A DNA stretch of 33,522 bases from Chitinophagales bacterium (GTDB lineage Bacteria; Bacteroidota; Bacteroidia; Chitinophagales; UBA10324). Under the pieces are notes generated by a model. It worked only from the letters and a program-made list of their open reading frames with translations, had not been told where the DNA came from and searched no databases. The stretch lies in contig JANWXQ010000011.1 in assembly GCA_025057275.1 (NCBI GenBank), positions 1 through 33,522 on the forward strand, in the 5' to 3' direction. This document shows positions 5,334 through 10,389 of this stretch, piece after piece; the first letter of the stretch is position 1; each line of letters opens with the position of its first letter. The translations under genes were made by a program, and so were the position numbers.

Positions 5334-5918
5334 ATGCAGCTGATTCTTGCATCGGCTTCGCCCAGGCGCCGTGAACTTCTGCAGGCAGTGGGCATCCCCT
5401 TCCGGATACTTCCTGCTCATGTGGAAGAAACTTATCCGAGCCAACTGCCGGTTCGTCAGGTGGCCGTTTATCTGGCTGAAAAAAAAGCACGCTCTTTGAT
5501 GGATCAGGTGTCCGGTCATGAAATCGTCGTAGCTGCCGACACCTGCGTCGTGCTTGGCGATACCCTTTTGGGTAAGCCTGCCGATGAACAGCAGGCCTTT
5601 CGCATGCTGCAATCGCTGTCGGGCACCACGCATGAGGTAATCACCGGTGTGGCCCTGATGCATCAGCAACGGTTACATTCTTTCTCGGAGCACACCCGGG
5701 TTACGTTTCGTTCGCTTGCGGATGAGCTCATCCGGTATTACGTGCGAATGTTTCGCCCGCTGGACAAGGCCGGCGCTTACGGCATCCAGGAGTTTATCGG
5801 CTACGTGGGAGTTGTTAGCGTTCAGGGTTGCTATTACAATGTAATGGGTCTGCCGGTAGCCCGTTTGCTGGCTGAACTGGAGACCTTTGGCATGGATTGG
5901 CGGCAGCAATTTTGTTGA
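5334..5918 (+). CDS. maf: Maf family nucleoside triphosphate pyrophosphatase
   Basis: A cytoplasmic house-cleaning pyrophosphatase that hydrolyses dTTP/UTP or modified nucleotides to the monophosphate. The 194 residues start with the family signature L-I-L-A-S-A-S-P-R-R, then show V-V-A-A-D-T-C-V (catalytic Asp region, about 66-73), L-G-K-P-A-D, and the C-terminal D-K-A-G-A-Y-G-I-Q-E and G-C-Y-Y-N-V-M-G-L-P motifs. The start is the ATG at 5334. A longer frame from 5277 is possible but adds residues that the family does not have. It is divergent from mqnD and followed by the secreted hydrolase pair. The Q-E-F-I-G-Y form of the C-terminal loop suits the dTTP/UTP subfamily, but substrate preference cannot be fixed by eye. 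Confidence 0.95.
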   Translation: MQLILASASPRRRELLQAVGIPFRILPAHVEETYPSQLPVRQVAVYLAEKKARSLMDQVSGHEIVVAADTCVVLGDTLLGKPADEQQAFRMLQSLSGTTHEVITGVALMHQQRLHSFSEHTRVTFRSLADELIRYYVRMFRPLDKAGAYGIQEFIGYVGVVSVQGCYYNVMGLPVARLLAELETFGMDWRQQFC

Positions 5919-6006: not shown

Positions 6007-8187
6007 ATGAGCAGACTGGGAGTAGCCGCCGTTTGGGGCTTGCTGTATGTTCCCGTTGCGCTTACCGCTCAGGTGGTAACGGGGTTAAAAGCAGAATACC
6101 GGCACGGTCAGATATTCATCATCTGGAATAACATTCCCGGCGTGGATAGCGGTTTTTACTATGTTTATTGTAACCCGTATCCAATTACTGCATCCAACAT
6201 TCAAACCAGCACCTACCTGGGACGGGTGCCGTATAATTTTTCATTCGACTTTCGGCTTACCCAGAGTATAGCGGACAACGTTCCCCGCCGGCTGGTCATT
6301 AACGACAGTCCGCGCCAGCCCGTGCGCTTTGATCAGAACGTTTTTGTGATGACCTGTACCGAAAACAATCAAACCACCTACTTTGCCGTTCGCTGCGATT
6401 ACGGTAACACCTCTCCCAACTGGATGGTTATACCGGGGGCCAATTCACTGGAAGCCGGTTTTGGGGTCAAGCAGGTGGTGGCTCCTGTTCGGGCTTATCT
6501 GCAGGAGGCCAACGTCAACTTTCCGGGCAGCAACAACGGAGAAAAAATGGATGTGTACATCCACTATGGCGGAAACCGGTCTACCATTTACTACCCTGAA
6601 ATGAGCAATGAAGGCTGTCTGGCCTTCCATTTTGGCATCATCAAAAGCGGGCCGGTAAACGGCAAGAATGCCGGCTTTCTGAAGTTTCATGGCGGCAACG
6701 GCAACTTCGTCAATAATGCCATCGGTGTGGTTATTGACAGTTCCTGGAAAATTTCGTTTGACGACTGGATTCCGAACTTCAATTTTTCTTCCAGTGGATA
6801 CCATACCCGTTGGTTCGGACATCACGAAAAATTTGATGTGTACAAAGCTACCGTTTTGGATCCGCCGCCGCTCAGTGGTGTGGTCAAGGCCTACACGCTT
6901 CGCCGGATCCGCTGGGAGCTGGATTGGATTCTGAGCCGCTGGCCCAATGCCATAGACTCCAATCGTCTGTATCTGATCGGAAGTTCGCAGGGAACGGCCG
7001 CCGTTTGGTCGCAGGCTTTGGTGTACCCCCACCGTTATGCCTGCGGCTCTGCCACTGACGGCAAACTGAACATGAATGCTGGCGAAGACAGCAATCCTCA
7101 GTGCAAGTACAACGAGGGGGGTACGGCCCGAACCGAAACGCGGATCTTATGGGGGCATGAAGATCAGAATAACCTCTTCACTGATTTGCCCGACCCGAAT
7201 AATCCAGGTGCCATGCTGCGCATTTACGACGTCACCAATGTGGGATACATGATGGCCTTACATCAAAATCGCGGTATTCCCTACATGCAGGCACTTAACG
7301 GAAAAGAGGATGTCAACACCTGTTGGGAAGAAAAAATTGCCGTTTACGATGCGGCCAATCAAAACCGAACCGGCTCGGTGTTCTTCTGGGATCTCCGAGC
7401 TCATGGCGGCAGCGGCAACAAGGAGTGGAAACCATTGAACATTAAAAACATGCTCCGCTATGCCACCAATAAGAGCATGCCTGCTTTCAGCTTCTGCTCC
7501 TGTAACGGAAACCCCGGTGATACGTATAACCCCACTCCCCCTTACTACGATGGCGACCCTGTCGGGGCCATAAATGGGAATGTGGATTGGAATGACAAAA
7601 CGCTGATTGACACAGACACCATGTGGCAGGTGCAGCTCTTTGCTTTTCAGCAACAACTGCTCTCCGGATCCTACTACCCCGGCGTCATGCCCGATGCCTG
7701 TGTGGCCGACGTAACCATTCGCAGGCCGCAACAGTTCAAAGGCTTTGCTGCAGGAACGGAACTGTGCTGGACCAACGTTTATCCCAACGGATCGCAAAGC
7801 GGAACTGTGATCGTGGAATACAACGGCACAGAAGCCAAGCCCATTACCATACCGGCAGTGCAGATTTCCACCGGCATCAGCACGCTTACTGTCAAATTGT
7901 GTGATGGACAGTTTGAGCGCCAGGCATACAGGCAAGCCGCTCCGATCAGCCTGCAGGCATTTGCTGCCCATGGCGATATCTTGGGAACAACGGTGATTTC
8001 AGATGCTGAAACGGGACATCTGTATCTTCAGGATGCGCTGGGTCGTGTTCTAAAAAAGCAGACCATTGCAGGAACTGCTCAGGCCACGCCGTTTCGCTTC
8101 GCTGCGCACGATTTGCCGGCAGGCATTTATTTTGTTCACCTGAAGGTTAAGGATCAAATGCAGGTAAAACGGGTTGTTATTCCATGA
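6007..8187 (+). CDS. Secreted alpha/beta-hydrolase-like protein with type IX sorting domain (first of tandem pair)
   Basis: The 726-residue protein has a signal peptide ending at T-A-Q (about residue 22). A fibronectin-III-like beta domain follows (about 23-150; A-E-Y-R-H-G-Q-I-F-I-I-W-N-N). The central region reads as an alpha/beta hydrolase. It has G-S-S-Q-G with candidate nucleophile Ser327, N-G-K-E-D with Asp435 and D-L-R-A-H with His466, in the order expected for a catalytic triad. The C-terminus (about 645-726, ending L-P-A-G-I-Y-F-V-H-L) resembles a type A sorting domain for type IX secretion, although the usual P-N-P opening is missing. The hydrolysed substrate is unknown; an esterase or peptidase-like role is only inferred. 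Starts at 5989 or 5929 are possible, but the ATG at 6007 gives the cleanest signal peptide. A paralogue with the same layout follows after 39 bases. Confidence 0.8.
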   Translation: MSRLGVAAVWGLLYVPVALTAQVVTGLKAEYRHGQIFIIWNNIPGVDSGFYYVYCNPYPITASNIQTSTYLGRVPYNFSFDFRLTQSIADNVPRRLVINDSPRQPVRFDQNVFVMTCTENNQTTYFAVRCDYGNTSPNWMVIPGANSLEAGFGVKQVVAPVRAYLQEANVNFPGSNNGEKMDVYIHYGGNRSTIYYPEMSNEGCLAFHFGIIKSGPVNGKNAGFLKFHGGNGNFVNNAIGVVIDSSWKISFDDWIPNFNFSSSGYHTRWFGHHEKFDVYKATVLDPPPLSGVVKAYTLRRIRWELDWILSRWPNAIDSNRLYLIGSSQGTAAVWSQALVYPHRYACGSATDGKLNMNAGEDSNPQCKYNEGGTARTETRILWGHEDQNNLFTDLPDPNNPGAMLRIYDVTNVGYMMALHQNRGIPYMQALNGKEDVNTCWEEKIAVYDAANQNRTGSVFFWDLRAHGGSGNKEWKPLNIKNMLRYATNKSMPAFSFCSCNGNPGDTYNPTPPYYDGDPVGAINGNVDWNDKTLIDTDTMWQVQLFAFQQQLLSGSYYPGVMPDACVADVTIRRPQQFKGFAAGTELCWTNVYPNGSQSGTVIVEYNGTEAKPITIPAVQISTGISTLTVKLCDGQFERQAYRQAAPISLQAFAAHGDILGTTVISDAETGHLYLQDALGRVLKKQTIAGTAQATPFRFAAHDLPAGIYFVHLKVKDQMQVKRVVIP

Positions 8188-8226
8188 ACAGCATCCGTAA
8201 TTCGTATTCATGTATTTCTTAAACAG

Positions 8227-10389
8227 ATGCTTCATCGGTTGTGCGTTTCGCTAATGCTTACAAGCCAATTGCTTGCTGAAGCAACGGCCCAAACGGTTAC
8301 CAACATTTCGGCAGCCTATCGCAACGGTCAGATTTTTATCACGTGGACTAACCAGACCGGGGTGGACAGCGGCTTTTATTACGTTTATACTCATTCGGTA
8401 CCTATTACCGATTCCAACTTGCAGCAATCCACCTACCTGGGTCGTGTGCCGTACAATTCCTCTTTTAATTTCCGGTTAACCTATGCTTTGCGTAACCAAA
8501 GCAACAAAGAGTATTTTGTTATTAATGATGCTCCTAAACAGATTCTGGATTCCACGCAGGGCTTTTTTGTCATGACCTGTACGCAGGCCGGTGCGCCTGC
8601 CTATTTCGCCGTGCGGTGCGACTACGGAAAGAGCGCGCCGAACTGGCAGGTGGTGCCGGGAGCCAATGCCACTATTACGCCAGTAGTGCAGCAGACCGAC
8701 CCGGTGCGGGCCTATTTTGTCAGAAAAATTAAGGCCGGAGGCAAAAACGATTCCATGGAGGTTTATGTTCACTATGGTGGCCGGCAGGGTGCAGGCGATT
8801 ATCCCGAAATGGCCAATGAAGGTTGCCTGGCATTTCATTTCGGTATCATTAAAAAAGGTACCGGGGGCAACCTGCCCATGTATGTGAAATTTCACGGAGG
8901 AAACGGCGATTTTATCAATGCGGCCATTCCCACCAACCTTGGAGATTGCTGGAAGGTGACAGTGGATGACTGGTTGCCGGCGTTCAAGCTAAGTCCTGAA
9001 GGAGGAAACAGTCGTTGGCTTGGTTATCACGAAGGGTTGGACGTTTATAGCCTTTCCTCCGCTTCTTTGCCACCGCAATCTGGCGTGGTCAAGGCTCACA
9101 CCTTCCGTAGAGTGGAATGGACCCTCAACTGGATTATCCGCAACTGGCCCGGTGCCATTGATACGACACGCATGTACTTAAACGGCGTTTCCATGGGTTG
9201 CGGGGGCGCTTTGCTCCATGCCATGGTCCGTCCCGAACGCTACGTAGGAGCCATATTATCTGATGGAAAATTTAATATCAACTCACTGGAAGACAGCAAC
9301 CCCAATTGCAAATTCAATGAAGGTAACAGCGCCCGCACTGAAGTCAGGCGCATCTGGGGTCACGAGGATTCGGTAAACCTGTTTACCGACATCTACAAAC
9401 CAGACCAACCTACCGAACGTTTTCGGATTTATGATATAACCAATACTAATTATATGCTGGAGTACAACCAGTTTAAATCCATGCCCATTATCCATGCCGT
9501 TAATGGAAAAAACGATGAGCTCACGTGCTGGGAAGAAAAAGTGCAGCTTTACGCCACCGCGCAGAATTTGCGTGTAGGGGGTAATTTTTATTGGGATTTG
9601 CGGACGCACGATGGCGGCGATAGCAAATGGCCCAACCTGAAGCCCAACCGACTGGGCGCATTAACCAGCCGGTCATCGTATCCGGCCTTCAGCAACGGCG
9701 ATCTCGATAGCAATCCGGGCAGTGCCTCCAACCCCAATCCGCCTTACTACAGCGGCGACGATGTGGGCAGTATAAATGGGTTCTATCAATGGGATCCGGC
9801 CTCAGTTCGCGATTCGGCTACCAGTTGGCAGGCACGAATCTGGATTGAACAGGATACCCTCAAAGACAACTCCCTGATCCCGGCTACGCTGCCGGCCTTT
9901 TCGAAGGTGGACATCACTCTTCGCCGCACACAGCAGTTTAAGGGGTTTGCTAAAAAGACCACGCTTTACTGGTGCAACATTTACAACGGGGATACCATCA
10001 AGACGGGAACGATCAAGCAGAAATACAGCGGTAAGACACCCCGGCCGTTAACCATTAAAAAAGTTAAAATCTATCCGGAGGGCAACCTAATTCGGGTACA
10101 AACCACTCCTTTCAAACGCCAGCTTTCCCTAACTGACGCGAAACCGGTAGTTGCAGCTCCTTATCCCAATCCATGTACAGAACAATTTACCGTGCTGTTG
10201 CCTCAGGCCCCCCGACTTACCCTTCAGCTCCTGTCGCTCACCGGTGTGGTAATGCTGGAACAACAGTTTTCTGGCACACAAACCGGTATGCCCCAAACGA
10301 TCGAATCAGCCTGGTTGCCAGCAGGCGTTTATGTGCTTGTGCTGACGGCTGATGGATTCCGGTTCACGCAGCGTTTAGTGAAGCAGTGA
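8227..10389 (+). CDS. Secreted alpha/beta-hydrolase-like protein with type IX sorting domain (second of tandem pair)
   Basis: This 720-residue paralogue of the preceding gene appears about half identical over its length by eye. A signal peptide ends at A-T-A-Q (about residue 22). The fibronectin-III-like domain follows (A-A-Y-R-N-G-Q-I-F-I-T-W), then the hydrolase core with G-V-S-M-G (Ser322), N-G-K-N-D (Asp430) and D-L-R-T-H (His461). Blocks such as N-E-G-C-L-A-F-H-F-G-I-I-K and W-G-H-E-D are shared almost exactly with the first copy. The C-terminus is a classical type A sorting domain: it starts P-Y-P-N-P and ends L-P-A-G-V-Y-V-L. The domain order implies export by Sec, then across the outer membrane by the type IX system. 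It has no clear promoter of its own and probably shares a transcript with the first copy. The function is not recognised beyond the hydrolase fold. Confidence 0.82.
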   Translation: MLHRLCVSLMLTSQLLAEATAQTVTNISAAYRNGQIFITWTNQTGVDSGFYYVYTHSVPITDSNLQQSTYLGRVPYNSSFNFRLTYALRNQSNKEYFVINDAPKQILDSTQGFFVMTCTQAGAPAYFAVRCDYGKSAPNWQVVPGANATITPVVQQTDPVRAYFVRKIKAGGKNDSMEVYVHYGGRQGAGDYPEMANEGCLAFHFGIIKKGTGGNLPMYVKFHGGNGDFINAAIPTNLGDCWKVTVDDWLPAFKLSPEGGNSRWLGYHEGLDVYSLSSASLPPQSGVVKAHTFRRVEWTLNWIIRNWPGAIDTTRMYLNGVSMGCGGALLHAMVRPERYVGAILSDGKFNINSLEDSNPNCKFNEGNSARTEVRRIWGHEDSVNLFTDIYKPDQPTERFRIYDITNTNYMLEYNQFKSMPIIHAVNGKNDELTCWEEKVQLYATAQNLRVGGNFYWDLRTHDGGDSKWPNLKPNRLGALTSRSSYPAFSNGDLDSNPGSASNPNPPYYSGDDVGSINGFYQWDPASVRDSATSWQARIWIEQDTLKDNSLIPATLPAFSKVDITLRRTQQFKGFAKKTTLYWCNIYNGDTIKTGTIKQKYSGKTPRPLTIKKVKIYPEGNLIRVQTTPFKRQLSLTDAKPVVAAPYPNPCTEQFTVLLPQAPRLTLQLLSLTGVVMLEQQFSGTQTGMPQTIESAWLPAGVYVLVLTADGFRFTQRLVKQ

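Follow-up and report, generated by a model that had tools for sequence, protein, structure and literature searches.

A lineage-expanded family of proteins in Chitinophagales, most likely surface or secreted serine esterases

Esterase D and the S-formylglutathione hydrolases (TIGR02821, PF00756) are intracellular, single-domain enzymes of ~280 residues with a catalytic Ser/Asp/His set and a GxSxG elbow. Polyhydroxyalkanoate (PHA) depolymerases of type 1 (NF050058) and the PHB-depolymerase-family esterases (TIGR01840) are secreted and multidomain, and the CE1 feruloyl and acetylxylan esterases, such as Bacteroides thetaiotaomicron BT_4077 (7xrt), belong to the same superfamily and are secreted in Bacteroidota. 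PET27 and PET30 of the Bacteroidetes are exported, PET-active serine hydrolases of the alpha/beta class that end in a PorC-type sorting tail; they were found with a PETase-specific HMM, comprise ~330 amino acids and have a single catalytic domain (PMC8767016).

The window, i.e., the whole 33,522-nucleotide stretch of Chitinophagales DNA that was analyzed, carries two adjacent genes whose products resemble each of these groups in part. Esterase D enzymes give the best fold match and share the order and placing of Ser, Asp and His; however, the window proteins add two beta domains and an insertion ahead of the Asp, carry type IX secretion system (T9SS) export signals and are only 10-15% identical to them. 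Similarity to the PHA and PHB enzymes lies around the nucleophile, but no recognized polyester-binding domain was seen and scores against NF050058 (cut-off, 150 bits) reach 14.6 bits for gene 1 and at most 36.4 bits in the eight members checked. BT_4077 aligns at Z 19.9, while the extra domains differ from those of CE1 esterases and no substrate-linked or polysaccharide-utilization gene lies beside the pair. The neighbors are housekeeping genes that offer no hint of a substrate: sigma-70, lptG, a glycosyltransferase, a menaquinone-biosynthesis gene, maf and an arginase-family gene, and further ccmE/ccmF, clp, lon, surE and lpxB. With PET27 and PET30 the pair shares phylum, fold class and a T9SS sorting tail, but not the size (720 amino acids here) or the number of copies (14 in this genome). 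The features of the pair are as follows.

6007..8187, + strand: gene 1, putative T9SS-exported hydrolase paralogue, 726 aa, triad Ser327/Asp435/His466 (homology and TIGR04183)
7987..8181, + strand: gene 1, predicted T9SS type A sorting tail (TIGR04183)
8227..10389, + strand: gene 2, putative T9SS-exported hydrolase paralogue, 720 aa, triad Ser322/Asp430/His461 (homology, TIGR04183 and AlphaFold2 model)
8227..8283, + strand: gene 2, signal-peptide-like N-terminus, residues 1-19 (sequence pattern; helix 2-17 in the model)
8284..8721, + strand: gene 2, predicted N-terminal beta domain, residues 20-165, fibronectin-III-like by strand pattern only (model)
8719..9678, + strand: gene 2, predicted alpha/beta-hydrolase core, residues 165-484 (AlphaFold2 model, fold and profile matches)
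9190..9192, + strand: gene 2, codon of the putative nucleophile Ser322 in the GxSxG elbow (invariant alignment column; hhalign)
9514..9516, + strand: gene 2, codon of Asp430 in the GKxD motif (invariant alignment column)
9607..9609, + strand: gene 2, codon of His461 in the WDxRxH motif (invariant alignment column)
9676..10122, + strand: gene 2, predicted family-specific beta-sandwich domain, residues 484-632, with a DITxRRxQxF motif
10162..10386, + strand: gene 2, predicted T9SS type A sorting tail (TIGR04183)
L040:2937-5171: orthologue of gene 1 in the sister species
L040:724-3117: orthologue of gene 2 in the sister species

The longest open reading frame of gene 1 opens with a TTG at 5887; since this version overlaps maf and the shorter one fits the corresponding start region of the sister species, the ATG at 6007 is most likely the start. 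Judged from the sequence, both proteins begin with a signal-peptide-like N-terminus. They end in T9SS type A tails of 26.6 and 36.1 bits (TIGR04183; cut-off, 23), and the genome encodes PorU (1352 bits), so that each protein combines a tail above 23 bits with a T9SS in its own genome, as expected of type A cargo. Scans for promoters and terminators returned chance-level hits only. The genome as a whole (2.48 Mb) holds ~130 T9SS type A tails above the cut-off, which is a very large share of its coding capacity.

The AlphaFold2 model of gene 2 (mean pLDDT, 91.7; pTM, 0.83) places Ser322 after strand 311-321 and before helix 324-334, Asp430 after strand 421-427 and His461 after strand 453-457. 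The predicted triad thus occupies the usual positions of a serine alpha/beta-hydrolase, in the canonical nucleophile-elbow order that defines the superfamily, as an earlier note based on the sequence alone had anticipated. Residues ~162-483 align on S-formylglutathione hydrolase/esterase D chains at Z 22-23.6, the best match being 3ls2, an S-formylglutathione hydrolase (Z 23.6, 3.0 A over 255 residues; VIA-align); feruloyl esterases and antigen 85 follow at Z ~20 and S9 peptidases at ~19-20. A core insertion spans about residues 346-420, between strand 341-345 and the strand preceding Asp430.

The domains on either side of the core are less readily assigned. The strand pattern of residues 20-165 in the gene 2 model resembles fibronectin III; Pfam fn3 matched none of 57 members at E 0.01, and the N-domain profile had no significant match among PDB sequences. 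The layout proposed in the earlier note stands for the core and for the T9SS tails; its fibronectin label is plausible by strand pattern and has no profile support. The C-domain profile likewise found no significant match in the PDB. Folded alone (pLDDT, 89.6), this domain gave no Foldseek match with E < 0.001, and its weak best matches were beta-sandwich domains of glycoside hydrolases (best Z, 6.9) and carbohydrate-binding modules; in the model, the likeness to glycoside-hydrolase beta-sandwiches may reflect only a common arrangement. When the C-domain (60 relatives) was sought outside the family, matches came only from family-holding genomes and, in this genome, from the same 14 loci, and thus the domain does not look like a mobile module.

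None of the 70 homologues compared, each of at least 640 residues, departs from Ser322, Asp430 or His461 (numbered as in gene 2), and the triad is also present in six far homologues from another taxonomic family, f17. The residues named in the earlier note, Ser327/Asp435/His466 and Ser322/Asp430/His461, occur at those positions and fall in the invariant alignment columns. Conservation elsewhere is sparse: in a 57-sequence alignment with a mean column identity of ~27%, only 14 columns are invariant, among them W435 and D457, with R459 nearly so, and the family signatures are GKxD....W and WDxRxH. The near-identical blocks that had been pointed out in the pair are indeed there, but they belong to its subclade and not to the family. 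Of 79 ORFs, only four, the pair and its two orthologues, contain NEGCLAFHFGIIK and five contain WGHED, which makes both of them subclade marks, while NEGCL occurs in 15. On the oxyanion side, the pair and the far homologues have an HGG motif, in whose place many paralogues have, e.g., FYEG, FEGS or YRDN; substrate handling or activity may therefore differ between copies.

Profile searches place the core among esterases. The core profile matches human esterase D (E 6.7e-9) and, further, LC-Est1C, acetylxylan, feruloyl and PHB-depolymerase-family esterases and PHL7-type polyester hydrolases; hhalign pairs Ser322 with the serine of the GHSMGG elbow of Escherichia coli YeiG. A family profile was built from 57 homologues, of which 15 match PF00756 (Esterase) at E 0.01 or better; one paralogue passes the gathering score (23.2 versus 22 bits), and the two window proteins are not listed for this model even at E 5. 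Neither of them passes any curated esterase cut-off. For the TIGR02821 equivalog (281.7 bits), gene 2 scores 11.4 bits and one far homologue 26.8. Pfam has no Peptidase_S9 match in the window proteins, PHROGs gave no match, and phmmer with gene 2 alone found no hydrolase in the PDB. No Pfam or NCBIfam model covers the whole layout, and we found no description of the family in the literature. As the family has no curated model, databases would name its members only by the sorting tail. What is new here is a lineage-expanded family without a curated name, inside an already known superfamily.

Genes 1 and 2 are paralogues, 45% identical over 709 residues, and the earlier note's description of them as a duplicated pair is too narrow. 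Our genome (2.48 Mb, 99% complete) contains 14 family members, as does a sister species of the same genus; three other genera have 11, about 12 and 6, and a fifth has about ten copies, many broken by contig ends. In total, five of the eight sampled genera of the window's taxonomic family carry 6-14 copies, and the family is absent from the other three. In the tree, each of the 14 copies groups with exactly one counterpart among the 14 sister-species copies, at 67-81% identity, a pattern of vertical inheritance. Since each member of the pair has its own orthologue, the pair is not a recent duplicate. dN is low, with dN/dS values of 0.05-0.07 in the 5 of 14 orthologue pairs for which dS could be estimated, dS being mostly saturated between the two species. 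Between 2309 and 16403 the genes follow the same order as on sister-species contig L031, and the pair is adjacent in that species as well, in full synteny. One-to-one orthologues, low dN/dS and conserved gene order indicate, from sequence comparison, an old duplication kept by selection.

Beyond these genera, matches thin out. Two candidates were scored per genome in each wider survey, and the following numbers are therefore lower bounds: 17 of 396 genomes of the order match at 1e-20 (8 of the window's family and 9 of f17), only the window genome matched among 395 genomes across the phylum, and one further genome of the class was reached with a profile of far homologues. Each of the six f17 genomes examined more closely has a single full-length copy. 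By these searches the family appears in only a few related lineages, with single divergent copies in few genomes elsewhere.

We consider it probable that both genes encode active, exported serine esterases of the esterase D/CE1-type alpha/beta-hydrolase superfamily, acting on extracellular ester substrates. The earlier note's proposal of an exported serine hydrolase whose Ser-Asp-His set is intact is well supported by triad invariance, predicted fold and T9SS tail; esterase chemistry would follow from fold and triad, with some reserve, because peptidases and acyltransferases share this fold and not all paralogues keep the HGG motif. The pair could instead belong to extracellular depolymerases of polyhydroxyalkanoate-like polyesters, in which the catalytic machinery would be the same and the beta domains would hold on to insoluble polyester. 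The NCBIfam model e_dPHAscl_type1 matches 39 of the 57 members (best E, 1.2e-9) and esterase_phb matches 16, PHL7-type enzymes appear among the core-profile matches, and Bacteroidetes are known to have PET-active esterases with T9SS tails (PMC8767016). However, the members that were scored one by one reach 20-36 bits where the cut-off is 150, mostly over ~40-80 residues around the nucleophile; the closest folds are esterase D enzymes, and the known Bacteroidetes PETases, at ~330 amino acids, lack the two extra beta domains. Scores so far below the curated cut-off argue against membership in the curated type 1 PHA depolymerases (NF050058), although a similar mode of action is conceivable, and we regard a polyester depolymerase as unlikely.

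Still less probable are readings that depart from ester hydrolysis. The core aligns with S9 dipeptidyl and acylaminoacyl peptidases at Z 19-20, and Peptidase_S9 is matched by three members (best, 2e-5), as might be expected if the proteins were secreted S9-like enzymes cutting proteins or peptides; yet esterase D aligns better (Z 22-23.6), the strongest profile matches are esterases and the whole-protein layout has no beta-propeller, so that a peptidase seems quite improbable. Surface acyltransferases resembling antigen 85 or mycoloyltransferases, which would move acyl groups between envelope glycolipids without hydrolysis, have in their favor the antigen 85 chains (Z 19.5-20), the multidomain Corynebacterium glutamicum mycoloyltransferase A (19.3) and the weak likeness of the C-domain to glycoside-hydrolase and carbohydrate-binding beta-sandwiches. 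The higher scores of esterase D enzymes speak against them, and a mycolate-type lipid is not expected in Bacteroidota; we rate this a shade below the peptidase reading. Large lineage-specific expansion, and the Ig-like and MopE-type repeats of long paralogues, are features of surface adhesins as well, but a dead hydrolase fold serving as an adhesin or a structural layer would not keep three catalytic residues invariant across paralogues that are ~27% identical on average, which makes non-enzymatic surface proteins very improbable.

If the proteins are indeed exported esterases, the signal peptide would carry them across the inner membrane, and they would fold into the N-terminal beta domain, the hydrolase core and the family-specific C-terminal beta-sandwich. 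The type IX system would pass them through the outer membrane, cut off the tail and anchor or release the protein. Ser322, activated by His461 and Asp430, would then attack an ester bond of an acylated or polyester-type molecule outside the cell, and water would free the acyl-enzyme. The insertion after strand 341-345 and the C-terminal beta domain may set substrate choice, and the 14 paralogues may cover related substrates, in line with the earlier suggestions of an external polymer and of specialized copies. Fourteen intact copies in a 2.5-Mb genome, about one-tenth of its number of T9SS tails, suggest a function central to dealing with the surroundings; were the substrate a polyester or an acylated polysaccharide, the family would offer a ready set of exported esterases. 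We suggest more tentatively that this is a distinct, unnamed, type-IX-exported family, with a fused N-domain, core and beta-sandwich of its own, whose expansion to 6-14 copies in few Chitinophagales lineages serves to attack several related ester polymers outside the cell, a substrate class so far not known for these lineages.

Other members vary in what follows the catalytic part. A third paralogue of the pair's subclade lies on contig C35 of this genome (433-2367, - strand); like its sister-species orthologue (459-2486, - strand), it ends right after the C-terminal beta domain with ..RVQRCD[LV]F and a stop; a tail-less form has therefore been kept in both species. Four tandem members of 913-1035 aa lie at ~14.1-25.6 kb of contig C3, with the same four in the sister species; all three that were scanned have MopE-type metal-binding motifs before the T9SS tail, and two have Ig-like domains there. 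In genome G003, members of 1188-1447 aa contain four to six MopE-type motifs, a sequence pattern that suggests a repeat region of variable length between the catalytic part and the tail.
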